In this document: positions 11,781 through 39,910 of the stretch, in pieces
Position numbering within the stretch: position 1 is the first letter of the stretch
How the letters are laid out: every line of letters begins with the position of its first letter
Virus record (IMG/VR): IMGVR_UViG_3300022538_000096
Coordinates: 1 to 44,431 of that record
Reading direction: 5' to 3' (one strand)
Source of the DNA: a virus
Length of the DNA: 44,431 bases
Translations under genes and position numbers: made by a program
The notes under the pieces: model-generated
The model's input: the letters and a program-made list of their open reading frames with translations, nothing else
What the model was told of the DNA's origin: nothing
The model's database searches: none

Positions 11781-12259
11781 ACGACTACGACAAAATGGTA
11801 GAGATATGGGAAGTGGAGGGGTTAAGGTTAAAGCAAGATAGGATTAATGAGATATGCGGGGATTTACAGGTAAAGGTTTCCCAGTATTGGAAGTTCCTAA
11901 GAGAATACAAGAAATCCATAGGCATAGAGGTTAAAGAGGAAGAAAGTGACCCCGACAAGATTTTTGCCAATTATATTGAGAGTGTCAGGAAAAAGGCCCT
12001 TGGTGATAAGGATTGGGCGAGGATATATACTGGGTTACTCAGATTCACTAAGATAGAGGAGATTAATGACGAACTTAGCCCTGAACAATATCTTGAATTT
12101 AGCAGAAAACTCAGGGACACCCTCTCAGAAGAGTATAAATCTACAGGAATCTGCCCATTGTGCCAGTTCCGTGTTTTACTGGATTCGGAATCACGTATAC
12201 ATCCAGAACGAGAACACAATGAAAGTGGAGAAGTGGCAACCGTGGGATTACCTGATTGA
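11777..12259 (+). CDS. terS: Probable terminase small subunit
   Basis: A 160-residue protein immediately before the large terminase. The N-terminus (EIWEVEGLRLKQDRINEICGDLQVKVSQYWKF broken into two helices) resembles the DNA-binding helix-turn-helix of small terminases, followed by acidic central helices. It overlaps the large subunit by 194 bases in another frame, which is unusually long. In that overlap its tail contains CPLC. The call rests on position and helical layout, not on a diagnostic motif. Confidence 0.55.
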   Translation: MNDYDKMVEIWEVEGLRLKQDRINEICGDLQVKVSQYWKFLREYKKSIGIEVKEEESDPDKIFANYIESVRKKALGDKDWARIYTGLLRFTKIEEINDELSPEQYLEFSRKLRDTLSEEYKSTGICPLCQFRVLLDSESRIHPEREHNESGEVATVGLPD

Positions 12260-13682
12260 CCTCTTATGGGTGTTTTTAAACTATAATGACATAACAATAG
12301 AGAAAGCCCGACAGTTGGGTATTTCGTGGCTTGTAAACGCTTTTGCCGTATGGAGGGTAAACTTCTTCGCAAATGCCAAGGCTCTCGTTTTAAGCCAAGG
12401 GCAAGAGGAAGCTAACGAGATGGTTTCCAAGGCAAAGTTTATTTACGAACACATGCCCAAATATATGCAACAGCCCAGAGACAGGAACAGGACTTCATGG
12501 TTATACTTTGGGGATACGTATTCGGAATTAAAGAGCCTCCCCTCAACTGACAGGGCTGGTACGGGTTACAACGCAACTCTGATAGTCAGGGATGAATTAT
12601 ACAACCATCCTTCGGGTGAGGCTAATTTTATGTCCGTAGCCCCCGCTACTGACGCTGGCGGGCAGTTGATTGATTTAAGTGCCGTTTACAGGGATGATTT
12701 GAAAAATCACTTTGTTGACCGAATACAGCAAATGTATCCCAATATCCCAGGAACGGAGAAAAGAGTTTTAAAATCAGGGTTGGAAATGTATACAAACAAA
12801 CATATGCCCTCAAGGGCTTTAGTCTTTTTACCGTGGAATTTAAGGCCTGTCCGCTTAGAGGGGCTTACATTAGAAGAGTTCTATGACACTCGCCTCCGAC
12901 CTCGTTATACAGAGATGCAGTTGGACAGACAGTACCCCTCCAGGATAGAGGATGCCTTAAGAATTTCCCTAACAAGTTCCTACTTTGAGTGGCAAATCTT
13001 AGACGAGATGGGCTATGATGTCTGCCCCCCTATCAAACAGACCGAGATAAATACGTATAACGGTATTGTTAGAGTCTATAAACCTCCTATTACGGGAAGA
13101 ACGTATATTATCTACACCGACCCCTCAGACGGGCGTGTAGACCCCTTTGTTACGGGGGTGATGGATTATGTCACTGGGGAATTAGTATGCTCTGCTACGG
13201 GGATGGAGAGGGTTTCTAAAGTAGCTGAAATACATGACTATCTCTCTAGAACATACAAAGCCACTAATTCTTATGAAGCCAACGCTGTGGGGATAACAAT
13301 GGCACAATGTTTAGATGACTTGAAAACCCCCAACCAATCTCAAAGGAGAAATGCCAAGGGTGAGATTGTAGAAGGCAGAACTGGTTTCTACGTAGAAGGG
13401 AAGATGAAAAACGAGATTATGTTCCCTGATTTAGCCTTTGGCATAGCTCATAGGAAATACGTTGTCCACGACAGGGAATTCATACAACAGGCAAAGATGG
13501 TCACAAGGGAACTAGAGAACCATGACAGGCTTAACTTTCCAGTAACCCCTCCCAAGCAGAGTTTTGACTGGGTGATGATGTTTAATGGCTTGGTTCAATT
13601 ATGTAAATATGCACCTAGAGGTACGGCTTCATTCAAGACTTACAAAGCTGACTCTAGAGGGAAGTATGCGTTAGCGAGGTAA
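12066..13682 (+). CDS. terL: Terminase large subunit
   Basis: A 538-residue packaging motor with ATPase and nuclease. KARQLGIS at 80-87 is the terminase-type Walker A variant and LIVRDE at 172-177 the Walker B with its Asp-Glu. Farther on, TYIIYTDPSDG (around residue 345) supplies the first RNase-H-like nuclease Asp, and SFDWVMMF near the end another. The N-terminal CASSVFYWIRNHVYI segment matches family members, so the true start lies upstream of it. ATG 12066 has AGAGGAG just before it and is kept despite the long overlap with the small-subunit frame. Confidence 0.92.
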   Translation: MTNLALNNILNLAENSGTPSQKSINLQESAHCASSVFYWIRNHVYIQNENTMKVEKWQPWDYLIDLLWVFLNYNDITIEKARQLGISWLVNAFAVWRVNFFANAKALVLSQGQEEANEMVSKAKFIYEHMPKYMQQPRDRNRTSWLYFGDTYSELKSLPSTDRAGTGYNATLIVRDELYNHPSGEANFMSVAPATDAGGQLIDLSAVYRDDLKNHFVDRIQQMYPNIPGTEKRVLKSGLEMYTNKHMPSRALVFLPWNLRPVRLEGLTLEEFYDTRLRPRYTEMQLDRQYPSRIEDALRISLTSSYFEWQILDEMGYDVCPPIKQTEINTYNGIVRVYKPPITGRTYIIYTDPSDGRVDPFVTGVMDYVTGELVCSATGMERVSKVAEIHDYLSRTYKATNSYEANAVGITMAQCLDDLKTPNQSQRRNAKGEIVEGRTGFYVEGKMKNEIMFPDLAFGIAHRKYVVHDREFIQQAKMVTRELENHDRLNFPVTPPKQSFDWVMMFNGLVQLCKYAPRGTASFKTYKADSRGKYALAR

Positions 13683-21342: not shown

Positions 21343-22862
21343 ATGGCTTACACTACCGCCACTGACCTGGCAGAGGGTCAGATTGCAATGGTAGGTACGG
21401 CAAGGTGAACTAATTGCCTTGGGTAAATTCGGCTATTTGCTGGAACATCTGAGTATACGGAGGTGCTGATATGCAAGAATCCAAAGTTGCAGACAACCAG
21501 CAGGCAACAGTTTTAGAGACAGAAAAAGCGTGGCTTGCTGGAATTATTGACGGGGAAGGTTGTATAAGGATAGATTATCCTAATGGCAAAAACTCAAGCC
21601 CTTCACCTAGAGTAGCAATAACTAATACGGACTTTGCTATTATAGAAAAGGCTGCTGATATATGTCAAAGGTTAGAATGTAATCCCTATATACAAACAAG
21701 AGACAGACGCAAGGATAACCGCAGGATTATTAAGGATGTACTTGTTCTGAGGGTTTCTAAAATCCTCACAGTTCTTACGGCTGTTATGCCTTACTTAACT
21801 GGCAGAAAACACAAGCAAGCGTTACTATTGCATAAGTTTTGTAGAATTAGGTTAGCGAAAGACGTCAACCACTTATCTAATAAAGATAGAACATATACCA
21901 AGGAAGAGATTGACCTAATCTACGAAATAAAACAAGCTAAATACTAAAACTGAGTCCTCAACGACTATACGCCGAACTCTTTATGAGATGATATAGTCTG
22001 GTCTGCATAGCGATATGCAGAGGTTGGCAGAAATGACCGATCCCCTCTAGCGAGGAGTAACAAAAACGATACATATGAGCACGAAAACGTGCTCCCTGGG
22101 TTGTTTGACAAGCACACTCTAGGTGCTGGCGAGAAGTCTCTTTTCATCCCGAAATTCGGGAAAGCTACAGCTAAAGACCTAACCGATGGCGTTGATATGA
22201 CCGAAACTAATCTATTAACTATTTCGGGTACAGAACACGTCACGGATGAGGCTGGTTGTAAGGTGGTTATCACCAAGAAACTTCGTAACCAGTTAAAAGA
22301 GGATGCTTACAAGGCTGCGGGCAAAGTTATAGGCAATGCCATGCTCAAGAAAATTGAGCAGGATGGTCTGAGCTTATTCAGTGGACTATCAGGTGGTTTG
22401 AAATCTGGTACTACTACACTGTCAATACAGTACATACAAGCCCTTGTTACGCAGATGTACGGACAGGACGAACCTGCCCCCGACCCCATACATTGTGTAT
22501 TACACCCGTACCAATACCACGCTATAAAAACAAACATGGCTCTCCCCGGAACCTCAATGATGCCAGATAGCATCCAGGGTACTGCATTACAGGGTAAATG
22601 GCGAGGAAACGAACCTCTCTATGGTATCCCAATTTATATTGCAGGAAACATTGATGCCTCTGACGTTACTACGACCTACGGTGCTGTGTTCTCCAAATTA
22701 GCTTTCATCTACCTAGTTGGATGGGAGCCTGAGACTTGGATGGAGGAAGATGGTTCCTTGAGAGGTTGGGAAATCGGCATCGTTGCCGACTATGCTTGCG
22801 TTGAAGAAGATGACGGCTACGGAAGGTTCGCATTATTTGACGCAACCGCACCTATTACATAA
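21343..22862 (+). CDS. Major capsid protein, split by a group I intron: join(21343-21406, 22069-22862)
   Basis: Exon 1 (AAGGAG, then ATG 21343) encodes MAYTTATDLAEGQIAMVGTA plus Arg and one base. Exon 2 starts at 22069. Joining 21406 to 22069 gives ...GTAR-YTYEHENVLPG..., a continuous frame of 285 residues. The junction reads through the motif seen in such coat proteins (Tyr-x-Tyr-Glu followed by a Leu-Pro segment, then KATAKDLTDGVDMTE). The rest (HPYQYHAIK, WEPETWMEEDGSLRGWEIGI) fits a phage coat fold. Without splicing the message stops at TGA right after the exon (21406-21408 region). GTG 22089 could look like a start but has no ribosome site. The N-arm of the capsid is therefore made only from spliced RNA. 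Confidence 0.88.
21407..22068 (+). ncRNA. Group I self-splicing intron in the capsid gene
   Basis: 662 nt. P1 is clear: exon CAAGGU (21401-21406) pairs with internal guide GCCUUG (21416-21421), with the hallmark U-G wobble at the splice site. P7 is GACUAU (21963-21968) with AUAGUC (21993-21998), inside the conserved R (CAACGACUAUACGCC) and S (GAUAUAGUC) elements. A P8-like CUC/GAG lies between them. Downstream is a P9-like perfect 8-bp stem with GCGA tetraloop (22002-22021). The intron ends in G (22068), as required. The endonuclease gene occupies the loop between the P3-P6 and P7 parts. Confidence 0.9.
21471..21947 (+). CDS. Intron-encoded LAGLIDADG homing endonuclease
   Basis: A 158-residue protein with one LAGLIDADG motif, WLAGIIDGEGCI at 21-32, so it probably acts as a homodimer like I-CreI. 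It would cut intronless alleles of the capsid gene at the exon junction and so spread the intron; it may also help splicing as a maturase. A GGAGGTG ribosome site (21461 region) precedes ATG 21471, so it can be made from unspliced RNA. The body has alternating strands and basic helices (KHKQALLLHKFCRIRL), as the fold requires. Confidence 0.88.
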   Translation: MQESKVADNQQATVLETEKAWLAGIIDGEGCIRIDYPNGKNSSPSPRVAITNTDFAIIEKAADICQRLECNPYIQTRDRRKDNRRIIKDVLVLRVSKILTVLTAVMPYLTGRKHKQALLLHKFCRIRLAKDVNHLSNKDRTYTKEEIDLIYEIKQAKY

Positions 22863-23177: not shown

Positions 23178-24032
23178 ATGAGTAATTTTCCATTTACTGT
23201 TCCATTAAGTCCCAGAGAGGTAATCTCAACAACTACTAACCAACGTGCCCCCCTTGGGACTAGGGGAGCTACTGCCGATGGCAGAATATACCGCTACGCA
23301 AAAGCTGGCGCAGCAATAGAAATTGCACACACGGTCAATTCACCAATCACTACTACAGCGTGGGGCAACGCCACTGGTGCTGCCCTGTCTACCGAGAGCA
23401 TTTCACCCACAGACGGAGCTACTGCTGTCCCAATCACCGCACGTACCCTTCGCCTGACTTCCACTTACGGGGCTACGAAGACCCTCACCGCAGACCTCTA
23501 TAAAGACGGGTGGCTCTGGGTAAGTGGTACTGCTACTCAACATGGTGGGCAGGTGCTTAAAATTAAGTCCCACGAAGCAGGAGTGAGTGGCTCTACGGGT
23601 TTGGGGGCAACTGGGGGTAAGTTCGAAGTCGTATTTGAAGATGGCTACTATTTGTCAAAAGCCCTTGATACTGACTGTTGGATTTCTATGTCCAAGAGTG
23701 AGTACGATGGGGTGATTGTCACCGCCATCTCTAATGTGATGGACATACTAGGTGTTCCTAACTGTGACGTTGCTTCTGACTCGTACTTCTGGCTCCAGAC
23801 ATGGGGTATTTGCTCCATAAAGTCAGAGGCGGAGGCTATCACATCAGGCAAAAATATTCTGAATAGTACGCAAACTGCTGGTTGTATTCAAGGTGTTACT
23901 GGCTCTACTGACTACACTGGTACCGGACAGGTGATGGGAGGGCACATAATTGGGACTGTAGCCCAGTCAACGGCGTTGACTGTACTACTAGCCTCCAACT
24001 GCATCCTAGTCAATCTAACCATCTCACCGTAA
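23178..24032 (+). CDS. Capsid decoration or second major structural protein
   Basis: A 284-residue, Thr/Ser/Gly-rich beta protein with few charges. The start (LGTRGATADGRIYRYAKAGA) matches a group of phage structural proteins encoded just after the coat protein. The composition and place favour an outer decoration protein or head fibre. Cys residues occur in the second half. It is a candidate acceptor for the sugar made by the adjacent cassette, but no glycosylation site can be read from sequence. Confidence 0.65.
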   Translation: MSNFPFTVPLSPREVISTTTNQRAPLGTRGATADGRIYRYAKAGAAIEIAHTVNSPITTTAWGNATGAALSTESISPTDGATAVPITARTLRLTSTYGATKTLTADLYKDGWLWVSGTATQHGGQVLKIKSHEAGVSGSTGLGATGGKFEVVFEDGYYLSKALDTDCWISMSKSEYDGVIVTAISNVMDILGVPNCDVASDSYFWLQTWGICSIKSEAEAITSGKNILNSTQTAGCIQGVTGSTDYTGTGQVMGGHIIGTVAQSTALTVLLASNCILVNLTISP

Positions 24033-24046
24033 AATAAATGGTTTTA

Positions 24047-24072
24047 GGGGGATTCGCCATAAGAAATCCCCC
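24047..24072 (+). other. Hairpin at the boundary of head and sugar modules
   Basis: GGGGGATT (24047-24054) pairs with AATCCCCC (24065-24072) around a ten-base loop. It is not followed by a T-run on either strand, so it is not a normal terminator. It may protect or process the late mRNA between the abundant capsid genes and the sugar genes. Confidence 0.5.
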
Positions 24073-24087
24073 AAATGAAAGGAAGAT

Positions 24088-24555
24088 ATGATTACATTAA
24101 GAGAAGCCACTTCTTCAGACTTATCCCTGATGTTCAAGTGGCGAAACGACCCAGAAATCTATCAGGGATTTTATCAACAAACAGAACCTTTACAATGGGA
24201 AGAACACGAAAACTGGTGGGCATCCAGACCCCCTTCATGGGAGACTTCTATTATAATGCTTGGTGAAGAACCGATAGGAGTTGTCAATATAGGTCAGATG
24301 GAACACTGGAGTCCTGAGATTGGCTATTACTTGGGTAGTTCTGAATACTTCGGCAAAGGTTACATGAAGGAAGCACTCTTACAGACCTTTGATTACCTGA
24401 AGGAAAGAGGTTACGATTACTGCCATACCACTATCAAGATAGAGAATGAACGAAGCTCTGGTTTAGCGTGGAGACTTGGTTTCACTATGCTAGGTGGTGC
24501 TAGGGAGGAGGAGGTATGGTTAACGAAAGACCTGAGACAGACCTGCCTGATTTAG
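24088..24555 (+). CDS. GNAT acetyltransferase, RimL/PseH-like
   Basis: A 155-residue acetyl-CoA-dependent N-acetyltransferase. MITLREATSSDLSLMFKWRN is the normal start of the RimJ/RimL group and YFGKGYMKEAL (about 88-98) forms the acetyl-CoA loop. PseH-type members of this group acetylate the 4-amino group of the UDP-sugar made by PseB/PseC. The neighbouring dehydratase, aminotransferase and nonulosonate synthase make that role likely. AAAGGAAG upstream; overlaps the next gene by 40 bases. Confidence 0.8.
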   Translation: MITLREATSSDLSLMFKWRNDPEIYQGFYQQTEPLQWEEHENWWASRPPSWETSIIMLGEEPIGVVNIGQMEHWSPEIGYYLGSSEYFGKGYMKEALLQTFDYLKERGYDYCHTTIKIENERSSGLAWRLGFTMLGGAREEEVWLTKDLRQTCLI

Positions 24556-25361
24556 ATTTAAGTGGGCTAGAAGAAGCAAAGGACAGACAACTAGGCTCTA
24601 TTGATGAAGAGATAGAATCAATGCTTGAGAGGGTAAGTAAATTAGACTTCCCTAAAGATGAATTAACAATCTGTGCTATGGGGAATACGAGAAAGTTCTG
24701 TCCATTTGATACGGAAACATGGGCTGTGAACATGGGGTACTACCAGATATTCCAGATATACGGTCACTTTGAAAAGACATTTCTAACACACACACAAGTC
24801 CACGATGTTCACGGTAGGGGGGCTTTTAACTGGGGTGATTTCAACAAGCTAGCCGAGGCTGGCATTGAGGTTTACAACACTCACAAAGTCAAGGGACTTA
24901 ATTCCACGCTGTACCCGTTTAAGAGAATTTCCAAGAAGTTCAACACTGAATACTTCTCAAATACAATCTCGTACATGATAGCACTTGCCATAGACATGGG
25001 TTACAAGAAGATAAACTTCTATGGGTGTGACATGATGACTACATCGGAGTACGCTTGGGAGAAGGGGGGATTGGAATACTGGCTGGGCAGATGTCATGGT
25101 ATGGGAATAGAGACTTTTGTAGCAGAAGGCTCCTCACTCTTAAAGACTATTACTGGGAAACCTTATGGTGTTAAGTATTTCAAGCTGAAGGATATTGACC
25201 CTACTGGTTCTATAAGAAGACAAGTAAAAAAATACACCCCTAAAAGCACTTCCACGGGTTATATGTTTGAAGACCCTATAAGACCCCCTGACCCCGAACC
25301 TACAAAGTGGTCTCAGGCGGTATCATTAGGAAGGCGAACAGGTGAATACATTGACGGGTAG
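24516..25361 (+). CDS. Maf/DUF115-like protein, possible glycosyltransferase
   Basis: A 281-residue protein. An acidic coiled N-terminus (to about 45) precedes a Rossmann-like domain with LTICAMGNTRKF, then SNTISYMIALAIDMGYKKIN-FYGCDM and an EYWLGR segment. These features recall the Maf/DUF115 family, whose motility-associated members transfer nonulosonic acids to flagellin, and a related phage group of unknown activity. If the relation holds, this is the step that attaches the sugar made by the cassette. GAGGAGGAGG upstream. Family assignment is uncertain. Confidence 0.5.
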   Translation: MVNERPETDLPDLDLSGLEEAKDRQLGSIDEEIESMLERVSKLDFPKDELTICAMGNTRKFCPFDTETWAVNMGYYQIFQIYGHFEKTFLTHTQVHDVHGRGAFNWGDFNKLAEAGIEVYNTHKVKGLNSTLYPFKRISKKFNTEYFSNTISYMIALAIDMGYKKINFYGCDMMTTSEYAWEKGGLEYWLGRCHGMGIETFVAEGSSLLKTITGKPYGVKYFKLKDIDPTGSIRRQVKKYTPKSTSTGYMFEDPIRPPDPEPTKWSQAVSLGRRTGEYIDG

Positions 25362-26154
25362 CGTTTTAATCACTGGCGGTGCTGGCTTTCTCGGTAGGGG
25401 TATAGCCAAGCGTCTCTTGGAGGAAGATTTAGAATCAATCAGAATCCTAGACCACAGTGAATACTTACTGTGGGAGATGGATACGCAATTTAACAATAGA
25501 ATATTCCGCTATTTCCTGGGTGACGTGAGAGACAGAGATAGACTAAACAGGGCTACGGACGGGGTGGATTGTGTGATACACTGTGCTGCTATAAAACATG
25601 TACCTATTGCCGAATATAACCCTATTGAGGCCGTGAACACAAACATTAACGGTTCAATTAACGTAATAGAAGCCTCTATAGAAAAAAGGGTTAAAAAGGT
25701 ACTTGCTATCAGTTCGGATAAATCAGTTCACCCTATAAATATCTACGGGGCTACGAAACTCTGCATGGAGAAACTAGTCATTCATTCCAACGTCTACGGT
25801 CTTACGAAATTCAGTTGTGTCAGAATGGGCAATATAGAAGGTTCAAGTGGGAGCGTGATTGAACTCTGGAGAAAACAAAGGATGAACGGAGAACCTGTCA
25901 CTGTTACAGAGAAGGATATGTCCCGTTACTGGATAGACCTTGACAAAGCCTCAGACTTCGTGGTAAACTCTCTAAAGAGGATGGAGGGTGGGGAAATCTT
26001 CATACCCTTAATGCCCAAACAAACACTGGAAGAACTGACTAAAATGGACGATGTTAAGATAATAGGCAAACGAAAAGGGGAGAAGAAGCACGAAGAACTA
26101 ATAGCCGAGGGTGAGGAAGTGGAGAGGCTTGAGGACTGTATGGTGATAAGATGA
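25342..26154 (+). CDS. NAD(P)-dependent sugar-nucleotide dehydratase, PseB/CapD-like
   Basis: A 270-residue extended SDR enzyme: nucleotide loop TGGAGFLG (11-18), AAIKHVPIAEYNP (82-94) characteristic of UDP-GlcNAc 4,6-dehydratases, SSDK (124-127) and YGATK (135-139) with the catalytic Tyr and Lys. PseB-type enzymes oxidise, dehydrate and epimerise UDP-GlcNAc as the first step to pseudaminic acid. GTG 25342 (AGGAAGG upstream) is used; TTG 25351 is possible. The C-terminus is shorter than usual for the family (about 330), so the substrate cap may be reduced. Confidence 0.85.
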   Translation: MNTLTGSVLITGGAGFLGRGIAKRLLEEDLESIRILDHSEYLLWEMDTQFNNRIFRYFLGDVRDRDRLNRATDGVDCVIHCAAIKHVPIAEYNPIEAVNTNINGSINVIEASIEKRVKKVLAISSDKSVHPINIYGATKLCMEKLVIHSNVYGLTKFSCVRMGNIEGSSGSVIELWRKQRMNGEPVTVTEKDMSRYWIDLDKASDFVVNSLKRMEGGEIFIPLMPKQTLEELTKMDDVKIIGKRKGEKKHEELIAEGEEVERLEDCMVIR

Positions 26155-26315
26155 ATGATGATAATATATGGTTATGGTGTAAACCCCCTTATTTCCCTAA
26201 GACTTGGTGGGGTAAATTATGGAAGGCTATAAAAGATGAACCACCTATAGAATGGGAGCATACAGAAACCCCTCAACCACCTACTATTTACTCTCCTAGT
26301 AAGACTGGATATTAA
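26151..26315 (+). CDS. Small Trp/Pro-rich protein
   Basis: A 54-residue protein (WLWCKPPYFPKTWWGKLW, then an acidic/Pro tail). It begins in an ATGA overlap with the dehydratase gene and ends three bases before the synthase gene. The aromatic amphipathic stretch might touch a membrane or a partner enzyme. Function unknown. Confidence 0.6.
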   Translation: MNDDNIWLWCKPPYFPKTWWGKLWKAIKDEPPIEWEHTETPQPPTIYSPSKTGY

Positions 26316-26317
26316 TA

Positions 26318-26965
26318 ATGATAATTTCTGAAATCGGACAAAACTTTCTAGGCTCAATGGACTTAGCACGTACCCTTATTCAGTTAAGTAAAAAGGGTGG
26401 CGCTGACCTAGCCAAGTTTCAACTATATGACCAAGACAAACTCTACAAAGACGATACACCCAACGTGGAACTATCCTTTAAGAACGCCAAGATGCTCTTC
26501 GACTACGGTAAAGAGATAGGTATGGAGGTATTCTTCTCAGTATTTAATGTAGAAAAGGTTAAGTGGTGTGAAGAGATAGGGGTTAAGAGATATAAGATTG
26601 CCTCTCGTATGCGTGATATTGATGTTTTAAGAGAGGTGGAACATACAAGTAAGCCAACAATAATTTCAGTTGACCCCAATTTGAGTAGTGCTAGAAACTT
26701 TGATGGCATACAATTATTTTGTTTAAGTGAATACCCTGCTAGTGTTAGCTTGAAATATATAGATTTCCCCTATGGCTGGCAAGGGTTTAGTGACCACACC
26801 ATAGGATTAGACTGCGCCAAGATAGCCCTAGCGAGGGGGGCTGAGATAATAGAAAAACACTTCTGTATCAACCACTCTACAGGGGTAGACGCTGAATGGT
26901 CTATGGACTATGACGAACTTGTAGAGTTGAAAAGATGGGAGACACTGTGCGAATCGGTATTATAA
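26318..26965 (+). CDS. Nonulosonic acid synthase, NeuB/PseI/LegI-like, short form
   Basis: A 215-residue TIM-barrel enzyme that condenses phosphoenolpyruvate with a six-carbon amino sugar. Catalytic features of the family are present: SEIGQN (E5), AKFQ (K33), YKIASR (K93), EYPAS (138-142), FSDHTIGL (H160) and IEKHF (K180, H181). The usual GQNH is GQNF here. Family members are about 340 residues and end in a SAF (antifreeze-like) domain that closes over the partner's active site; that domain is absent. The gene overlaps the next by 31 bases and no SAF fragment lies nearby. Confidence 0.85.
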   Translation: MIISEIGQNFLGSMDLARTLIQLSKKGGADLAKFQLYDQDKLYKDDTPNVELSFKNAKMLFDYGKEIGMEVFFSVFNVEKVKWCEEIGVKRYKIASRMRDIDVLREVEHTSKPTIISVDPNLSSARNFDGIQLFCLSEYPASVSLKYIDFPYGWQGFSDHTIGLDCAKIALARGAEIIEKHFCINHSTGVDAEWSMDYDELVELKRWETLCESVL

Positions 26966-27519
26966 CTTCACGCTGGCAATCTAAAAGACTCCCAGGCAAA
27001 GCCCTTTTAAAGATACAAGGCAAGCCCTTACTACAACATATAGTGGACAGGGCTAGGGGGAGTACACTAGATGATGTGGTTGTTGCTACAACGTTAAGTT
27101 CCTACTCAATCATTAAATACTGCATGGATAATCAAATCAATTACTACGCTTATCAGAATGATGAGAACGTACTGGGGAGACTTTTGGAAACTGCCCACTC
27201 TTACAAAGCTGATACGATAGTTTACTTATGGGGAGATTGTCCTTTCATAGACCCTGTTAAGATTGATAAAGGGTTAGAATACTTTGAATACGACCCGTTC
27301 TACTTCTTTGACATGTCACAACCTATGGCGATTATGAAGACTTCTCTATTAGAAGAACTCTCTCAAACTCACCTCTCCAAGCACAAGAAAGAGTATATCC
27401 ACGACCATATAATGAAGAATATATGGAGACCGAAAGTGGAAATAAATTCGAAAGAAGACTTGGTGAAAGCTAATGAAATTGAAAGACAAATTAGGCAAGA
27501 AGAAGGAACTGTACTTTAA
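26935..27519 (+). CDS. CMP-sugar cytidylyltransferase, NeuA/PseF/SpsF-like
   Basis: A 194-residue nucleotidyltransferase. IITSRWQSKRLPGKAL (9-24) is the CTP-binding signature (R-x-x-S-x-R-L-P-G-K), followed by GKPLLQHIVDRA and, later, GDCPFIDP for metal and sugar. These enzymes activate nonulosonic acids as CMP-sugars, which fits the preceding synthase. Somewhat short; closest in look to the SpsF branch. Confidence 0.82.
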   Translation: MGDTVRIGIITSRWQSKRLPGKALLKIQGKPLLQHIVDRARGSTLDDVVVATTLSSYSIIKYCMDNQINYYAYQNDENVLGRLLETAHSYKADTIVYLWGDCPFIDPVKIDKGLEYFEYDPFYFFDMSQPMAIMKTSLLEELSQTHLSKHKKEYIHDHIMKNIWRPKVEINSKEDLVKANEIERQIRQEEGTVL

Positions 27520-27841
27520 CAAACAAAGGCTGAGAATCCCAATCCGCATTTATGAGGCAATGGATAATGGGCTGGTGGGGTATAAAGTTAAAATAGGTGA
27601 TGAATGGTCTTATCTTTGTATCTGTTTTATGTGTGGGACGAAATTTGTGATACAGTGCCAACCCAATGATGCCCAAACACAAAGGTGGTCTCTGTTGGGG
27701 ACAAAATGCCCATTATGTGAGTGGCCCATAAGGGATGGTGTCCCTGACGGTGCTTTTAAGGTAATGGGTGAAATCGCAAAAGCAAATAAATTCTTAGCTG
27801 AAAATACGCCGAGACTATTTGGTGGGTTGTTTAGAAAATGA
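27473..27841 (+). CDS. Zinc-binding protein in the sugar cassette
   Basis: A 122-residue basic protein with CICFMC (near 49-54) and CPLC (near 79-82), a four-Cys zinc site, and a helical C-terminus (MGEIAKANKFLAENTPRLFGGLF). It overlaps the cytidylyltransferase by 47 bases; a later start such as ATG 27560 is possible. No enzymatic motif. Its place suggests a helper of the cassette or a small tail/virion factor. Confidence 0.6.
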   Translation: MKLKDKLGKKKELYFNKQRLRIPIRIYEAMDNGLVGYKVKIGDEWSYLCICFMCGTKFVIQCQPNDAQTQRWSLLGTKCPLCEWPIRDGVPDGAFKVMGEIAKANKFLAENTPRLFGGLFRK

Positions 27842-28980
27842 ACTACTGCAAGAGATGCGTTCAGCCTGATACCCGCCCAAATATTGAGTTCAAGGATGGT
27901 GTATGCGGTGCCTGTCTCTACGAAGACGAGAAGAAGAAGATTGATTGGGTAGAGCGTGAGAAAGAGTTAAGCGATGTTGTTTTAATAACTAAGGGTTTAG
28001 TCGAACATCATAATTACTATAGGGTTGAAACTAATTCTAATTTTGAATACTATTATGATTGTGTTCTAGGTGTGAGTGGAGGTAAAGATTCCACCTATTG
28101 TGCCATTTATGCCAGAGATAATCTGGATTTACACTGTCTGTTGGTCAACAGTGAACCTGAAGGCATCACCGAACTAGGAAGATATAACATTGAGAATCTA
28201 ATCAATCTAGGCTTTGATTGTATTAAACTCAGACCCAATCCTAAAGTAATGAAGTTCTTAATGAAGAGGGATTTCTACAAGTCCCTTAATCCTGTCAAGA
28301 TTACTGAGTTTTCTTTATGGTCTTCAGCTTATATAATTGCCGATATGCTTAACATACCATTGATTATACAGGGGGAGAACCCTGCCCTTACATTAGGGGT
28401 TACAAAGGGACTCCCGCCCAACTCAGACGCTCTCAATGCCGATAGGCAGAATACCCTGGCCGATGGGTGGAGACAATATATAGACCCCGCCGATGAAAAG
28501 GACTTATTCTTATTCCACTATGATAAGGAATCTCTTAAAAAGAAATCAACGGCTATATGGTTACAATACTACGCTAAAGAGTGGTCTCCGAGACATAATG
28601 CTGAATTCGCCCAAAAATATGGTCTAAAGTGGAGAGAGGATTTTAACCCAGAAGACATAGGTACTTACGTACCCTGGGCACAATTAGATTCTGACTTAGT
28701 ACCTGTAAATCAGATGTTCAAGTATTATAAATTCGGGTTTGGTCAGTGTACTGACTATGCGTGTTATGATATACGTGAAGGCACTTTAACAAGAGAAGAA
28801 GGTTTTGAATTAGTGGAGAAGTATGACGGTAAATGTGGTGCTTGGTATATTGAGAAGTTCTGTAAGTATATAGGAATTACAGAAACAGAGATGTGGAATG
28901 TAGTGGGAAAATTTGTTAATAAAGACTTATTCCACAGGGAGAACGGAAGATGGCAAAAGAGCTTCAAATTACCGAGATAA
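27838..28980 (+). CDS. N-acetyl sugar amidotransferase, WbpG/PseA-like
   Basis: A 380-residue ATP-dependent amidotransferase. It starts MNYCKRCVQPDTRPNIEF with a Cys-zinc knuckle (C4, C7, C23, C26) typical of the family, followed by the PP-loop SGGKDS (80-85) that binds ATP. Relatives convert an N-acetyl group into an acetamidino group on O-antigen sugars (WbpG) or on flagellar pseudaminic acid (PseA), using ammonia from a glutaminase partner. No glutaminase (HisH-like) gene is in the cassette, so it may use free ammonia or a host partner. ATGA overlap upstream. Confidence 0.85.
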   Translation: MNYCKRCVQPDTRPNIEFKDGVCGACLYEDEKKKIDWVEREKELSDVVLITKGLVEHHNYYRVETNSNFEYYYDCVLGVSGGKDSTYCAIYARDNLDLHCLLVNSEPEGITELGRYNIENLINLGFDCIKLRPNPKVMKFLMKRDFYKSLNPVKITEFSLWSSAYIIADMLNIPLIIQGENPALTLGVTKGLPPNSDALNADRQNTLADGWRQYIDPADEKDLFLFHYDKESLKKKSTAIWLQYYAKEWSPRHNAEFAQKYGLKWREDFNPEDIGTYVPWAQLDSDLVPVNQMFKYYKFGFGQCTDYACYDIREGTLTREEGFELVEKYDGKCGAWYIEKFCKYIGITETEMWNVVGKFVNKDLFHRENGRWQKSFKLPR

Positions 28981-29282
28981 AGGATAATGGCGGTTATGAG
29001 CATATTTTTGTGGGCACTGTAGGACATGACGTTATCGGAAGGTCTGCCTTATACATTGATAAGAATGAGGCGGAGTTAAGGGTTCATATAATCCCTGAAT
29101 ATCAAGGTTTGGGTTATGGGCAAGAATTGGTAACCCACGCTGTAGCGGAGGGGTTAAAGTATCTTGATAGAATATGGTTAGGCTTTGAAGAAGGTAATGA
29201 GGGAGCCAGGAAGATATACGAAGGTCTTGGCTTTAAATACACTACACACAGGATGGAGATATGTACCGAGTTGGAATTATAG
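28950..29282 (+). CDS. Second GNAT acetyltransferase
   Basis: A 110-residue GNAT domain with PEYQGLGYGQELV (49-61), the acetyl-CoA pyrophosphate loop, and a C-terminal EGARKIYEGLGF helix-strand typical of the fold. It may acetylate a second amino group of the sugar or another acceptor. GGAAG lies upstream; both ends overlap the neighbours. Confidence 0.78.
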   Translation: MAKELQITEIKDNGGYEHIFVGTVGHDVIGRSALYIDKNEAELRVHIIPEYQGLGYGQELVTHAVAEGLKYLDRIWLGFEEGNEGARKIYEGLGFKYTTHRMEICTELEL

Positions 29283-29935
29283 GTCTGGGCAGGATAGCTT
29301 GCGAACTTCCAGACAATCATTATCTCGCATATCATAATAACCCTGAAACCGCCTTGCTTTGTTTATGCGATAATAAGAAGGATTTAATATCTGAATGGGG
29401 TAAATGGAATCTATCTTTATGGAATGATTATTTAGGGATGGTAAAAAAGTGGAGTTTGGATATAGTTTCTGTCTGCACCCCACCTGAAACCCATAGAGAG
29501 ATTGTGTGTAATATAGCACCCTATGTTAAAGCTATTTACTGCGAGAAGCCCATAGCCGAGACTTTGGGAGACGCTGATGAGATGATAAGGATTTGTCATG
29601 AAAATAATGTCATCTTACAGATAAATCACCAACGGAACTTTCTCCCTGTAGATGTTTACTTTTCAAGGGGATGTTTGAACACAGGGACTCATATGTACGC
29701 CTTAATAGACCACTTTTTGAAGAACGACACAAAGGTTAACATACACTATATAGAGGGGGATGAACACGTTTTCCAATTGGAACTGGCTCACAATGGGGAA
29801 ATGATGATACCCTTGGGGGTGGAACACTTGGTGGATTGTATTAAGAATAAGAGAGAATCTATTGTATCAGGCGAGAAGGGATATGAGGCTTTAAAAATGT
29901 CACTTTACCTCAAAGAAAAAATGGGGTATCCTTGA
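29261..29935 (+). CDS. Gfo/Idh/MocA-family oxidoreductase, short form
   Basis: A 224-residue NAD(P)-dependent sugar oxidoreductase. YRVGIIGLGRIA is the Rossmann loop (2-13), VSVCTPPETH (69-78) and YCEKPIAETL (93-102) the family signatures including the EKP catalytic Lys. The substrate domain is about 100 residues shorter than usual, yet keeps a GTHMYALIDHF segment that corresponds to the metal/substrate helix. Members in glycan clusters oxidise or reduce UDP- or free sugars before amination. The stop overlaps the next start. Confidence 0.8.
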   Translation: MYRVGIIGLGRIACELPDNHYLAYHNNPETALLCLCDNKKDLISEWGKWNLSLWNDYLGMVKKWSLDIVSVCTPPETHREIVCNIAPYVKAIYCEKPIAETLGDADEMIRICHENNVILQINHQRNFLPVDVYFSRGCLNTGTHMYALIDHFLKNDTKVNIHYIEGDEHVFQLELAHNGEMMIPLGVEHLVDCIKNKRESIVSGEKGYEALKMSLYLKEKMGYP

Positions 29936-31017
29936 AGCATCCATACATAAACGAAAAGACTATTGGAGAGGTCTCCGAAATTCTAAGAAGCGGAGACCTC
30001 TCCTTATATAGAGGGTCTCCCGCAGGACATGACGGAGGATATTGGGTACAGAAACTAGAAGAGTTAATCCGAGAGACTTTTAATGTAAAGTACGCAGTAG
30101 TCATGAATTCAGCCACGGCTTGTCTACATTCTGCTTTATTGGCCCTAGGCATAGGCGAGGAGGATGAAGTTATTGTTTCGCCTTATTCGTTTGTTAGTTC
30201 TGCTTCTTGTACTCTCATGGTGGGTGCTACGCCTGTGTTTTGTGATATTGAAGACGAGACATTCTGTGTAGATGTTGATAAACTTGAGATTACGAACAGT
30301 TCAAATTTCAGGGCAATCATCCCTGTAGATTTGTGTGGGCATCCAGCGGACTATGATAAGATTAAAAAATTAAACATACCAATCATACAAGACTCTGCTC
30401 AAGCAATAGGAGGGAAATATAAAGGTCAATTTTGTGGGCTTCAAGGTGACTGCGGGATATACAGCTTCAATCAAAGCAAGCAGGTATCCTCTGGCGAGGG
30501 TGGGGCTTTAGTCACCAATAATAATGAAATCTATTTAAAAGCCAGGGCAATTAGAAACCACGCCGAAGTATCCATGCCTGAGTTAAATTTAGTCGGGTAT
30601 AACTACAGATTAAATGAAGTGGAAGCGTGTATAGTTTACAATCAATTATTAGACCTTGAGAACAATATAGGAACACGCCGAGAGTTATGCCAGTACATGT
30701 CCAGCAAACTGAGTGATATTGAGGGCATCATCCCACCGATAGACAAGGAATACCATTCATACTATACATATGCTGTTAAATGGGAACGGGAAGGCTCTAG
30801 AGATAAATTTCAAAAGAAGATGATAGATAAAGGTCTTTACTTTGGGATGGGCTACGTGAAACCTTTATACAGATTATCCATATTTAACAGTGATATAAGA
30901 CTCCCTGTAGTAGAAAGAATGTACGAGACTATAATGGTTACAGACCAGTTCAGATACCCAATGACTAAAAAAGACTGTGATAGATACTTGGAGGGAATAA
31001 ATGAATGCCTGACATAA
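29932..31017 (+). CDS. DegT/DnrJ/EryC1-type sugar aminotransferase, PseC-like
   Basis: A 361-residue PLP enzyme. It has NSATACLHSALLAL (59-72) for cofactor phosphate, QDSAQAIGG (153-161) with the Asp that binds the PLP nitrogen, and SFNQSKQVSSGEGG (178-191) with the Schiff-base Lys 183. It would add the 4-amino group to the keto-sugar made by the dehydratase at 25342. Start is TTG at 29932, forced by the tight overlap with the previous stop and by the family's usual start (HPYI). Last enzyme of the cassette. Confidence 0.88.
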   Translation: MKHPYINEKTIGEVSEILRSGDLSLYRGSPAGHDGGYWVQKLEELIRETFNVKYAVVMNSATACLHSALLALGIGEEDEVIVSPYSFVSSASCTLMVGATPVFCDIEDETFCVDVDKLEITNSSNFRAIIPVDLCGHPADYDKIKKLNIPIIQDSAQAIGGKYKGQFCGLQGDCGIYSFNQSKQVSSGEGGALVTNNNEIYLKARAIRNHAEVSMPELNLVGYNYRLNEVEACIVYNQLLDLENNIGTRRELCQYMSSKLSDIEGIIPPIDKEYHSYYTYAVKWEREGSRDKFQKKMIDKGLYFGMGYVKPLYRLSIFNSDIRLPVVERMYETIMVTDQFRYPMTKKDCDRYLEGINECLT

Positions 31018-31331
31018 TAGAGAACATACGGACAATGAGTGTCCGGATTAAGAATAAGGAACAACTACCCCTTGGTAATAAATCAAGGGGTAGATTCATT
31101 AAGACGGGCAAAGGGCAACCCGATATTCTCATACCCTCTTACGGGCTTCTTGAAAAAGAGGAAATTGATTATATAGCGGAGGCAAATATTGAGAAAGACA
31201 AGGACAGGGTGAGGAGAACGCCTATGAAAGAAAACTTGGAGAAGGTAACGAAAGCCTTATTAAATGCCCCGCAGGGGGAAAGGAGAAAACTATTGAACGA
31301 AATAAAGGGGGAAAGTAATGCCAGGAGCTAA
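31005..31331 (+). CDS. Hypothetical charged protein
   Basis: A 108-residue Lys/Glu-rich protein (MPDIIENIRTMSVRIKNKEQ...) that overlaps the aminotransferase by 13 bases and the next gene by 14. Helical C-terminus (APQGERRKLLNEIKGE). It marks the return from sugar to structural genes. Function unknown. Confidence 0.65.
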   Translation: MPDIIENIRTMSVRIKNKEQLPLGNKSRGRFIKTGKGQPDILIPSYGLLEKEEIDYIAEANIEKDKDRVRRTPMKENLEKVTKALLNAPQGERRKLLNEIKGESNARS

Positions 31332-31656
31332 TTTAGTAGAATATCAAACTGCTGCTGCCGTCATTGACGGTACAAGCGGGATAAACCTAGACGGAACTAC
31401 GGGTATATCTGGTATAGGGGCAATCCCCGTAGGTGCTAAAGGTGCTGTTATAACTGCGTTTGGTGCTGGTATCAGATGGCGACTTGACGGGACTAAGAGC
31501 ACGACAGGGGTGGGTCACTATCAAGCAGCTAACAGTATCATAACATTTGACTCATGGACTGCGCCAGGGAATGACTGGAGAAGCGTCTTGAAGGCAATGA
31601 AGTTCTCCCCGTCATCTTCGGGTACGGTCACACTAAGTATTTCATACTTTGATTAG
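31318..31656 (+). CDS. Small beta structural protein
   Basis: A 112-residue Gly/Thr/Ala-rich protein (VEYQTAAAVIDGTSGINLDG..., ending VTLSISYFD). This low-charge beta composition is that of virion decoration or fibre-tip proteins. GGGGGAAAG upstream. Precise role unknown. Confidence 0.65.
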   Translation: MPGANLVEYQTAAAVIDGTSGINLDGTTGISGIGAIPVGAKGAVITAFGAGIRWRLDGTKSTTGVGHYQAANSIITFDSWTAPGNDWRSVLKAMKFSPSSSGTVTLSISYFD

Positions 31657-35698: not shown

Positions 35699-37528
35699 GT
35701 GTCTTCTTGGAATGATTATATTAAACATAAACTTGAAGGTTACAGGGGTTTCCCTTATTTATTCCCGTTTAGATTCGCAGAGCATAGGAGAAAATTTATG
35801 GATACAATAACTTTACTTGCGTTGTTACAGGATTTCGGGGAGAGTCACGGTGGGTTTCACTCATTCGCAACTACTACTAATATTACAACAGACCAAGATG
35901 TTATAAGTACCGCCTTAACCGATTATGATAACTCTGAAGATGACTTCTTTAAGGATTGGTGGCTCTGGATTAACACTATCGCTAATGCTACTAAACTGAA
36001 AAAGGTCACAGCATATACATCAACTTCTGGTACTTTAACAGTAGATGGTGTAGCCTACTCTTCTGAAAGTGCTGCTGCTACGTGTTACCTTTTTAAATAC
36101 AACCGTGACCAAATGAAAGAAGCCTTAATCCAAGCCGAGAAAGACATCTTCCCAACGCTATATAAAAGAGTGGATAACCAAACATTAAGTACAGGCAATA
36201 TCCTAAGGGATGGACATTTAGAAGAATGGTCTAGTACATCTGCTTTGACTTACTGGACGGTTTCCAACGTAACTTTAACACGTACTATTAATGCTGGTTC
36301 TACGAGGGGTGGGACGTACTCCGCCCATGCAGACGCAACAGCAGCCAACGGGAATATTTCAGTATCGTCTAATACTTTCCCAGAACTCCTACAATTGCAA
36401 GGTAAGACGGTTAATGCTTACGCTATGGCAAATGCAGAAACATTAGACGATGCAACCATAATAATAGATACCGTTTCCAAGGACGGGACAACTACGCAAA
36501 CATTAACCTCAACAACTTCATGCCCTGCGGGGTACTGGACAAGGATAGAATTTGAGAGCCAGACTCTAAACGATGACTTGCAGGAAATTAAATTTACCTT
36601 AAATACAGCAACAAGCGGGGAGTATGTCATCTGGGATAATGTGTGGTTCGGGTCTCAGCAGTTAAGTGAATATCTGTTACCTTTACAGTTTGTTGACGGG
36701 CATGTATCACAGGCTTTTGTGCAGACTAGAGGGCATGAAGACCCGATTATGTATGATTTAAGCCCTTTCACTGAAAACAAGGGTGAGCAATTTAACTATG
36801 AAATTTACAATGACGGGGCTTATAAATATATAAGAATCCCCAAGTTCCCCAATAAGAGGCTTATAAGATTAAAGGGGTACGAACCACTAGAGGCTTTAAG
36901 TGCGGATTCAGATACGATTACACTGGAAACCGAAAAAGCCCCCTTGTTAATCTCCAAGGCTGCGGAGAAACTATACGAATATGTAATAGACCCCTTGATA
37001 AACGAGATAGAAAGATTCAGAGCAGACATGACTTCTATCACCACTAATATAGCTACGGCTGATACTGCTATCGTAACCTTAGATACAGCACAGGCTACCT
37101 TCGATACTGGGATAGTCACCATTGTGGGAACAATAGATGGTCTAGCTGCGGGGATTGTCACGGATACAACCGCTTTAGATGCTTTGGTTGTATCTGCTGC
37201 CACGGCTGGTTCTGAGGATATTGCGGGGTATGATGAGCAGATTGAACGGTTAGATAAAAAGATAACCAGACAACGAACATTAAAAGCTGATTTAGACGAA
37301 CAAATCCAGCGTGACCGTAGCTCAAAGAAAGACAATGATGAGCAGCGGCAGAGACTCCAGGAGAAGAGGCAACGCTATGATGAGGATTTAAAGAGGCTTG
37401 ACGAGAGGATTCAAAGACTAAATGAAGTTATAGGATTTTATAATAATAAACTATTACTTTCAAGAGTTAAGACAAGGGAACTTATGTACTTAGGGATGAG
37501 TAGACCAAGCGAATTAGTGAGGAGATAA
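35699..37528 (+). CDS. Connector/tail protein with carbohydrate-binding-like insert and coiled coil
   Basis: A 609-residue protein, GTG start behind AGGTGAGG. Layout: N-terminal helical region (1-150), a beta-sandwich of carbohydrate-binding type (about 165-315: GHLEEWSS...YWTVSNV...EYVIWDNVWF), then a domain ending EPLEALSADSDTITLE-TEKAPLLISKAAEKL, which resembles the C-terminal part of head-tail adaptor proteins of short-tailed phages, and a long charged coiled coil (about 500-585). It may be the adaptor or a fibre-attachment protein. Confidence 0.6.
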   Translation: MSSWNDYIKHKLEGYRGFPYLFPFRFAEHRRKFMDTITLLALLQDFGESHGGFHSFATTTNITTDQDVISTALTDYDNSEDDFFKDWWLWINTIANATKLKKVTAYTSTSGTLTVDGVAYSSESAAATCYLFKYNRDQMKEALIQAEKDIFPTLYKRVDNQTLSTGNILRDGHLEEWSSTSALTYWTVSNVTLTRTINAGSTRGGTYSAHADATAANGNISVSSNTFPELLQLQGKTVNAYAMANAETLDDATIIIDTVSKDGTTTQTLTSTTSCPAGYWTRIEFESQTLNDDLQEIKFTLNTATSGEYVIWDNVWFGSQQLSEYLLPLQFVDGHVSQAFVQTRGHEDPIMYDLSPFTENKGEQFNYEIYNDGAYKYIRIPKFPNKRLIRLKGYEPLEALSADSDTITLETEKAPLLISKAAEKLYEYVIDPLINEIERFRADMTSITTNIATADTAIVTLDTAQATFDTGIVTIVGTIDGLAAGIVTDTTALDALVVSAATAGSEDIAGYDEQIERLDKKITRQRTLKADLDEQIQRDRSSKKDNDEQRQRLQEKRQRYDEDLKRLDERIQRLNEVIGFYNNKLLLSRVKTRELMYLGMSRPSELVRR

Positions 37529-39910
37529 ATGGCTTCGACTTATAGTTCGGCAAAATATGATTTCGGTCTGAAAGACCCAGTGACCACAGACGTAATAGGC
37601 ATGATGCTCAAGAAGCGTGTTGTAACGGATGAGCATGGCAGGAAAAGCAAAGCTCCTATCTGGGAAGTGTATGACGGGAAGCATTTAGTAGACTTATTCA
37701 CTCAATCACCCACCCAAATCTCAACCAACCCTGAAGAGGATTTACCCATAGGGCAATCAGACTGGAGGGGTGGGTTTGGGTTGGAGGTACAGAACTTAGA
37801 CGAGCCCCTAAGGTACCATAGGTCACTTGGTATGGATATGAGATTCAGGGGCAGGGGTATTTTAGGTTGGAGTACTACGGCTGTTACTTTGCCAGGGATA
37901 CCTGCTATAACAGACGCAGGGTTAGAAATATGGACAGACTCTACTTTAACTAACTGGCCATTCTCAACCAACGGTACTTCTACTTTAGCCAAAGAAGGGA
38001 CAACGAAAGATTCAGGGGATTGGTCAGCTAAGATAACCGTATCCAACGCTGTAGGAGAATACGGACAAATACTACAAGCTGCAACCAATCCCACAAGTTT
38101 TCAAGGTGCCACTATTACTGTAACTGCTAGATATTATAACACCGACGTAACCAAAGCTGCTGCCAAGTTAATAATAGATGATGGAGTGGGGGCTGCTACT
38201 GAAACCATTGGGGCTGTTGATGCTACATGGACGACTGTATCCGTTACTAAAAAGATAGCTGCCACCGCAGCAAAGGTTGAAGTTATTTGCAAGGGCTATT
38301 GGACGAGTGCTGCCTCAACTGTGTTCTTTGACTCAATAAACTTCCCCGAAGCTGGCGTTAAGGCTATAAAACACGCCGAGTTTGATTCAGACTTATTCTT
38401 TGCAAATGGCGAACTCTTAATGAGGATGAACAACTCTACTGGCGTGGTTACAGTTCAAGCGGGGTTTTTAAACACAATCACGGACATTAAGAAGTTCACT
38501 GTTAGTGGCACGGATTATCTATTCGTATTCTTTGGGACAAGTGTGACTTATCAATACATGACCACAGCCGAAGCGTTTACAACCTCCAATGCAACCGTTA
38601 AGACATTTCAGTTCGCAACATGGGTTAATACTACAGTGGATACTTTATATGCAAATGATGGAACAAACACCGTGAGGTCTACTGTAGACCCTCTCAATGC
38701 GGGTACAGCGTGGTCAGACCAAACAATAGTAGGTGATGCCGATAGTTCAATAACCCACTTACAGGGGAAAGATGGTGCTCTTTTAATAGATAAAGAGGAT
38801 ATGCCCTATTACTTGGACTCTTCGGGAAACGTACAAAAGGATTTAGCCCCTGAGTGTATACATAGTAAATCAACTCATTCGGGTAAGAACTCAACTATAT
38901 GGGGTGGTGAATACTTTAGACCAACGGGAGACCAGGAATTAGTGAGAATCGGAACCATAAACTCATGGATAAGCCCCTCTAATTATGGCACAGATATAGG
39001 GGATTTTGCAGGGCAAGTAGAAGCTGTAGTAGGGGATGGGAAATATCTATACTGTATAACGGATAATTCGACTGATATTGAAGTCTTAGCAGGTAGAGAG
39101 GAGACAATAGATTCTTCTACTTCCTGGAGATGGCATCCTATCCATGAAATTACCTTAACAGGCTGTGAGACTATCTTTATTTCCTCAATCTACAAAAAGA
39201 GACTTTATATATCATCTACATCTAGCGGTGATTCTCTATATTATTTCCCCTTACCTACTAAATACGGGGATATAGAAAATGATAACGAGGTTTCATTTAA
39301 AAATGGGGGTACATTTGAGACATCTTGGTTACATGGTGGTTTCCCTACTGAGGATAAATTAGCTTTAAGTGCTACCTTAACAATGGAACACTCTTATGAC
39401 GCTAATATTTATTTTAATGTTTATTATAAACTCTTGGGTGGTTCATGGAGTTCTGCGGTTAAGTTTGACGGCTCAGGGACTTCAATGATAGACACTCAAT
39501 TCCTATCGAGTGCAGCCACGGCAAGAACCTCCCCTATGATTAAACTAAAATTTGAAGGAATCACTGATACAACGGCAAAAACTCCTGTCCTCTTAGACTT
39601 CAAATTGAATACTATCTTATACCCTGATGTTAAGACTATCTATTCCTGTGTGGTAATGTGTCATAAAGCCCTGAGATTAAAGGACAACGCAACTGAAGCA
39701 GACAACGTAACTGTTATTAAAGCAGCCATAGCAAATGCCAAAGCAGCCACCCATCCTGTAACCATAACAGACATAGATGGTACTGAACACACTGTAAAAT
39801 TCCTCCCTATAGGTGATACCCCTCACTGGTTAGTGTCTAGTCATCAAGCCAGTACAGGTAGTATAGAAAGAGAATACAGGTTATACTTTATGGAAGTCCC
39901 AATGAGTTAG
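37529..39910 (+). CDS. Large tail/minor structural protein with carbohydrate-binding-like insert
   Basis: A 793-residue beta protein. After 120 residues comes a beta-sandwich (about 125-275: LEIWTDSTLTNWPFS...VFFDSINF) similar in layout to the insert of the preceding gene. From 275 to 700 are repeated strands with FANGELLMRM, SDQTIVGDADSSITHL and YLYCITDNSTDIE, reminiscent of the blade repeats of propeller-like tail nozzle proteins. The size, place and repeats fit a tail nozzle of a short-tailed phage; this is inference. Confidence 0.6.
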   Translation: MASTYSSAKYDFGLKDPVTTDVIGMMLKKRVVTDEHGRKSKAPIWEVYDGKHLVDLFTQSPTQISTNPEEDLPIGQSDWRGGFGLEVQNLDEPLRYHRSLGMDMRFRGRGILGWSTTAVTLPGIPAITDAGLEIWTDSTLTNWPFSTNGTSTLAKEGTTKDSGDWSAKITVSNAVGEYGQILQAATNPTSFQGATITVTARYYNTDVTKAAAKLIIDDGVGAATETIGAVDATWTTVSVTKKIAATAAKVEVICKGYWTSAASTVFFDSINFPEAGVKAIKHAEFDSDLFFANGELLMRMNNSTGVVTVQAGFLNTITDIKKFTVSGTDYLFVFFGTSVTYQYMTTAEAFTTSNATVKTFQFATWVNTTVDTLYANDGTNTVRSTVDPLNAGTAWSDQTIVGDADSSITHLQGKDGALLIDKEDMPYYLDSSGNVQKDLAPECIHSKSTHSGKNSTIWGGEYFRPTGDQELVRIGTINSWISPSNYGTDIGDFAGQVEAVVGDGKYLYCITDNSTDIEVLAGREETIDSSTSWRWHPIHEITLTGCETIFISSIYKKRLYISSTSSGDSLYYFPLPTKYGDIENDNEVSFKNGGTFETSWLHGGFPTEDKLALSATLTMEHSYDANIYFNVYYKLLGGSWSSAVKFDGSGTSMIDTQFLSSAATARTSPMIKLKFEGITDTTAKTPVLLDFKLNTILYPDVKTIYSCVVMCHKALRLKDNATEADNVTVIKAAIANAKAATHPVTITDIDGTEHTVKFLPIGDTPHWLVSSHQASTGSIEREYRLYFMEVPMS

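Follow-up and report, generated by a model that had tools for sequence, protein, structure and literature searches.

Why should a virus carry a run of sugar-modifying enzymes between its capsid and tail genes, and what would these enzymes make? We addressed this question in an IMG/VR virus record of 44,431 bases, which we will henceforth refer to as the window (i.e., the entire stretch of DNA analysed). An earlier note on this DNA had named eight sugar enzymes at 24088–31017 (a PseB-like dehydratase, a DegT aminotransferase, two GNATs, a NeuB/PseI-like synthase, a CMP-sugar transferase, a WbpG/PseA-like amidotransferase and a Gfo/Idh oxidoreductase), and profile searches found all of them there. 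The proposed setting between capsid and tail genes likewise held, as the terminase (12066–13682, upstream of the capsid gene), the capsid family and conserved tail-region genes could all be located. Specifically, 5' of the cassette lie the terminase, portal-like, large virion-like, scaffold-like and capsid genes, followed by a gene we call DEC; 3' of it lie x1 and x2 and then tail-region genes (35699–39910), the latter conserved in relatives. The major capsid protein (22089–22862, although its start may lie upstream) matched PF25209 weakly and has relatives at 28–74% identity in 80 viral loci. The border genes on the right (31005–31656; x1 31005–31331, x2 31318–31656) are kept in relatives both with and without the cassette (x1 36–58%, x2 32–52%). 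The cassette genes, the capsid gene and the features bordering the cassette are all on the + strand. Elsewhere in the window, a LAGLIDADG-type homing endonuclease gene (21471–21947) sits between the scaffold-like and capsid genes, and the left region encodes a TSCPD-domain protein and a metallophosphoesterase/exonuclease (2328–2675 and 1362–2186).

The enzymes had been described as one unbroken, overlapping run. Neighbouring genes do overlap, by 4 to 47 nt (with starts called mechanically), but the run is broken once, by a 163-nt gap between g3 and g4 (26155–26317), and it contains two further ORFs without a family, g2 (281 aa) and g6 (122 aa). Promoter-like sites were no more frequent than expected by chance.

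The first gene, g1 (24088–24555), encodes a GNAT N-acetyltransferase (PF13302, 2e-21; relatives at 44–60%) for which PseH was the top NCBIfam model (8e-10 in the window, below cut-off; 39–48 bits in the window and relatives against a cut-off of 93). Downstream of g2, g3 (25342–26154) is a PseB/FlaA1-like UDP-GlcNAc 4,6-dehydratase of the C5-inverting type (TIGR03589, 6e-86), scoring 288 bits to PseB (cut-off 408; the protein is shorter), 189 to FnlA and 63 to LegB. Its nearest solved structure is the Helicobacter UDP-GlcNAc C6-dehydratase FlaA1 (2gn4, 7e-69), and its SDK...YGATK motif (SDK and YxxxK) is retained in five phages. The NeuB/PseI barrel encoded by g4 (26318–26965; PF03102, 5e-30) scored 104 bits to PseI vs. 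94 to NeuB. For the SpsF/KdsB/PseF-like CMP-sugar synthetase g5 (26935–27519) the PF02348 match is clear (4e-21); in the window the PseF model is weak and KdsB-like models score best, and the homologue in the related contig G003 reaches 135 bits to PseF. A small cysteine-pair protein without a family match (g6, 27473–27841) precedes g7 (27838–28980), a WbuX/PseA-type N-acetyl sugar amidotransferase which matched TIGR03573 over its full length and above cut-off (285.9 vs. 203.2 bits; relatives at 52–67%, n = 2) and which carries a PP-loop with an invariant SGGKDS motif as well as CxxC pairs. The last three genes encode a short GNAT (g8, 28950–29282; PF00583, 1e-10; 62% in contig G027), a compact Gfo/Idh oxidoreductase (g9, 29261–29935; PF01408, 2e-19; 42% in contig G028) with UDP-GlcNAc 3-dehydrogenase as its top match, and a PseC-like DegT aminotransferase (g10, 29932–31017; PF01041, 5e-72; TIGR03588, 2e-60; relatives at 42–50%) scoring 205 bits to PseC vs. 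179 to the LegC type.

With the exception of WbuX, nearly all NCBIfam scores of the cassette enzymes fell short of the equivalog cut-offs, to which the smaller size of the viral proteins contributes (PseB 270 aa, NeuB 215, CMP transferase 194, Gfo/Idh 224); this includes PseC, the top model in the window, G003, G027 and G028 and below cut-off in all four. The top models across the window and its relatives were PseB, PseC, PseH and PseI, joined by PseF in G003, and this ranking points to the pseudaminic acid (Pse) branch. The profiles place the enzymes of both the window and its relatives in the Pse pathway, in support of the pseudaminic/legionaminic logic proposed earlier.

Related phages carry the same genes at the same place. 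A nonulosonic acid (NulO) cassette or a smaller module occupies the slot behind DEC in nine contigs, i.e., the window and eight other IMG/VR contigs of the capsid family (G003, G027, G028, G029, G031/L130, G032/L139, G033/L140 and L135), the recurrence for which the earlier note had advised looking. These relatives in viral contigs were found by alignment queries; single-sequence scans with WbuX, g2 and NeuB gave none, searches of a phage collection by DNA similarity and by tblastn with WbuX returned no match, and two genome-contig scans for a host yielded no relative. In the closest contig, G027 (capsid 74%), g1, g2, PseB, the CMP transferase, WbuX, a GNAT, a second GNAT, DegT and x1 follow in the window's order; Gfo and NeuB are absent, NeuB throughout the 29-kb record, and the CMP transferase is kept (67%). 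Contig G029 (capsid 36%) has g2, g1, PseB, NeuB and the CMP transferase before it ends, and G003 (capsid 34%) has g1, g2, a full NeuB with the SAF domain, a PseF-like transferase, WbuX, PseB, a short NeuB, DegT and then the tail. Both G028 and G033 (capsid 32–34%) carry g2, g1, GlmS, PseB, NeuB, the CMP transferase, Gfo, DegT and a second g2, an order displayed without a break in G033; in G028 the capsid gene lies at the far contig end. Their GlmS, an unusual gene for a phage, is full-length (GATase and SIS domains; L113 1275–2831 and L140 13122–14651), exceeds the NCBIfam cut-off in G028 and would feed the amino-sugar precursor. Smaller modules consist of NeuB (286 and 272 aa in L130 and L139, respectively) plus g2, with or without a CMP-sugar synthetase and with no PseB or DegT, and L135 has a CMP transferase and a NeuB truncated by the contig end. 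We also observed two radical-SAM-like proteins beside NeuB in the slot of L130 (11818–14595), possibly for further sugar tailoring, and another HNH/LAGLIDADG gene in that of L139.

No sugar genes were found in capsid relatives at 52–59% (L122, L124, L126, L127, L129 and L150); between their DEC and x1 lie genes of structural appearance, including those for collagen-like proteins and tandem paralogues. Given that these nearer relatives lack the cassette and others at 31–36% have it, it is not tied to one capsid type; rather, the site is a variable slot that adjoins virion surface genes within a presumably late structural operon. A contig related through its terminase (G001, 48%) has the same backbone and no sugar genes, and its capsid gene was not matched to the window's by tblastn. 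Sugar enzymes are often closer between phages than capsids are (e.g., between G003 and the window WbuX 52%, PseB 53% and NeuB 51% vs. capsid 34%), a pattern compatible with modules being swapped horizontally into a slot that itself stays in place.

Absence from nearer capsid relatives is also what one might expect if host-derived genes had been caught by chance, or an assembly were chimeric, and the cassette had no function for the phage. We find this hardly credible: gene order and slot are repeated in other contigs, so that chance is excluded and synteny rules out a chimeric assembly, and a comparison of all nine cassette genes between G028 and G033 gave dN/dS of 0.04–0.20 (e.g., 0.09 for the short NeuB and 0.04 for g2), values which are approximate for those genes whose dS is near saturation. 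In this tested pair the cassette genes are under purifying selection. Moreover, the enzymes did not fall into unrelated pathways and, among the capsid-family carriers found, NulO genes never lay outside the structural operon, these being the two outcomes that the earlier note had set against its own proposal.

Could the pathway run to a nonulosonic acid? The earlier note had overlooked g2, a likely transferase, and the fact that NeuB lacks its SAF domain. At 215 aa, g4 retains the barrel and the motif residues and has no SAF domain. The short NeuB of five phages keeps the EIG glutamate, the lysines, both metal histidines and the EKH glutamate (metal and PEP-site residues); the catalytic role of these residues, and of those conserved in PseB, we take from knowledge of the families. 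Loss of SAF is not unique to this lineage, as most viral NeuBs surveyed are also without it, and the match to a solved NeuB-family protein of 290 aa (6ncs), itself too short for a SAF domain, spans the barrel only. In Caulobacter NeuB, the SAF domain lends an arginine needed for activity, and R322A alone inactivates the enzyme (PMC7591256). We regard the SAF-less NeuB as the main biochemical doubt about the pathway, and G027, with its cassette devoid of NeuB, as the main genetic one.

Both doubts would be met if the cassette instead made UDP-linked amino-deoxy sugars by means of PseB, DegT, GNAT, Gfo/Idh and WbuX, with the SAF-less NeuB altered or dispensable and g2 using another donor. Besides the absence of NeuB in G027 and the essential SAF residues of the studied homologue (PMC7591256), the best scores of g5 to KdsB-like models and of Gfo/Idh to UDP-GlcNAc 3-dehydrogenase would agree with such a product. 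However, the same motif residues recur in the NeuB of all five phages compared, this gene is strongly constrained, two relatives have NeuB and g2 without PseB or DegT (making NeuB the recurrent part), and G027 itself retains the CMP transferase. We thus consider a UDP-sugar product improbable.

Profiles also confirmed the absence of the two partners that the earlier note had not seen: PseG (TIGR03590) and the HisH glutaminase (TIGR01855) were each found in 0/25 WbuX-bearing viral records, i.e., the window and 24 others. Their functions may either be supplied by the host or be performed by other enzymes in the viral pathway; the lack of PseG is a further weakness of the proposed pathway. In many unrelated viral contigs (L016 to L042) WbuX is accompanied by PseB, NeuB or DegT, and HisH and PseG are almost always missing; one of them (L042) has a HisF homologue.

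Taking these observations together, we lean, if only slightly, towards a phage-encoded Pse-type nonulosonic acid pathway that is expressed with the late structural genes and serves virion glycosylation. PseB (g3) and the PseC-like DegT (g10) would convert UDP-GlcNAc into a 4-amino-4,6-dideoxy UDP-sugar, which a GNAT (g1 or g8) would acylate. After removal of UDP by a host or unrecognised enzyme, the short NeuB (g4) would condense the sugar with PEP, g5 would turn the NulO into CMP-NulO, and WbuX (g7) and Gfo/Idh (g9) may tailor it (amidine, redox step). Finally, g2, as a soluble CstII/Maf-like enzyme, would transfer the sugar in the cytoplasm to a capsid, decoration or tail protein, such that the virion itself would be decorated. 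Each step of the pathway is open to assay with purified enzymes.

The candidate CMP-sugar transferase g2 (24516–25361) had no sequence matches in Pfam, PHROGs or PDB. An AlphaFold model built with 42 viral homologues, with a core pLDDT above 90, suggests a CstII/Maf/MptE-like fold: a Foldseek search against PDB ranked the sialyltransferase CstII first (1ro8, E 6e-4), an archaeal pterin pyrophosphokinase second and Maf 15th, with thiamin pyrophosphokinases also matched, and the likeness to CstII is at the level of the superfamily only (TM about 0.4–0.46, about 16% identity). Of the capsid loci, 36 extend downstream for 4.5 kb or more; g2 and NeuB/CMP genes were together in 5 of these and both absent in 31 (Fisher p 2.7e-6), and in a separate scan 12 of 55 g2 loci in other phages were near NeuB/CMP genes compared with 1 of 71 controls (p 2e-4), both tests ignoring shared ancestry. 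The one exception to the pairing, L135, emerged at a looser threshold. Against such a link, the majority of these g2 relatives (43 of 55) have no NulO gene nearby. Based on the fold match and the co-occurrence with NulO genes, we propose that g2 may be the transferase for NulO, within a superfamily broader than NulO transfer. In an unrelated phage (L033, 8071–9771), a g2-like gene split by an apparent intein adjoins a capsid gene; this phage also has, immediately 5' of its head genes, NeuB, a CMP transferase and WbuX.

What would be the acceptor? DEC (23178–24032), the left border of the slot, was modelled with pLDDT 77.5 and pTM 0.80, and its best fold matches were the base of the phi29 head fibre gp8.5 and the cement proteins of Pam3 and XM1 (probability about 0.8–0.97, E at least 0.13), which is suggestive of a capsid decoration-like or head-fibre-base protein. 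Between DEC and the cassette lies a hairpin (24047–24072; -14 kcal/mol, z -1.5), possibly a partial terminator or attenuator. A hairpin directly follows the DEC stop codon in 4/5 phages examined, and those of L052 (5525–5550), L116 (13133–13160) and L140 (11952–11981, followed by six T) stand at the same place with different sequences and are stronger. As a guess, such hairpins would be consistent with partial termination that keeps enzyme levels below capsid levels.

Alternatively, the pathway may remodel the host surface during infection, placing the sugar on LPS, capsule or flagella and thereby blocking superinfecting phages or freeing progeny from receptors. In favour of this reading, epaA-epaB of Acinetobacter prophages, the one case of phage NulO chemistry that the literature search turned up, modify the host capsule (PMC12053666), cyanophage Yong-DA has host-type polysaccharide genes, and virus AG-345-L05 encodes DegT and a short NeuB within a large cluster of sugar and glycosyltransferase genes. 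However, the cassette has no recognisable lipid-linked glycosyltransferase, flippase or polymerase, no tyrosine integrase (PF00589) was found in the nine records (all possibly incomplete), and remodelling would be of little use late, the cassette sitting among late virion genes beside a decoration-like protein. We therefore view host remodelling as unlikely.

More tentatively, and with somewhat less than even confidence, we suggest that the site is an exchangeable "virion glyco-slot". Its modules would amount, at their largest, to an almost complete Pse-type pathway (two phages include a GlmS of their own), and a viral CstII/Maf-like transferase would attach the product to the capsid. This would be the first virus-encoded NulO synthesis dedicated to the particle, with a SAF-less NeuB binding its substrate in a new way. 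It is customary to view phage particles as naked protein; if the proposal is true, phages build a sialic-acid-like coat of their own, with consequences for adsorption, persistence and recognition. It would also reveal compact NulO enzymes, including a synthase that has no SAF, a domain regarded as necessary to bind the substrate, and make g2 a candidate for a new family of transferases found widely among uncharacterised phages. The literature searched, which excluded preprints and most subscription journals, described neither a cassette for NulO synthesis within a virion operon nor any phage-encoded NulO synthesis beyond EpaA/EpaB.

Compared with the bacterial Pse pathway (PseB-C-H-G-I-F with PseA/WbuX tailoring), five steps are matched here by an enzyme, as a candidate in the case of PseH, PseI and PseF, with Pse models best or near-best, and a PseA/WbuX-class amidotransferase is present; unlike it, the viral pathway is borne in a capsid-tail operon, has no PseG and no HisH/HisF, and relies on compact enzymes including a 215-aa NeuB without SAF. 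The prophage enzymes EpaA/EpaB (PMC12053666) share phage-encoded nonulosonic acid chemistry, but they come from two genes for epimerising Pse that the host has made and puts in its capsule, not from a synthesis cassette in a structural operon. CstII is the top structural match of g2, although at the remote similarity given above. In flagellin glycosylation, a soluble cytoplasmic transferase puts Pse on flagellins (FlmG, PMC7591256); it and Maf resemble the system proposed here in the CMP-NulO donor, the soluble cytoplasmic transferase and a structural-protein acceptor, and g2 is weakly Maf-like in fold, but their acceptors are flagellins of the cell and not a virion, and g2 is without the FlmG targeting domain. 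Finally, mycobacteriophage capsids are glycosylated (Freeman 2023, cited in PMC11256854); glycosyltransferases only are involved, without NulO synthesis, and there, as we propose here, phage genes place glycans on the virion.
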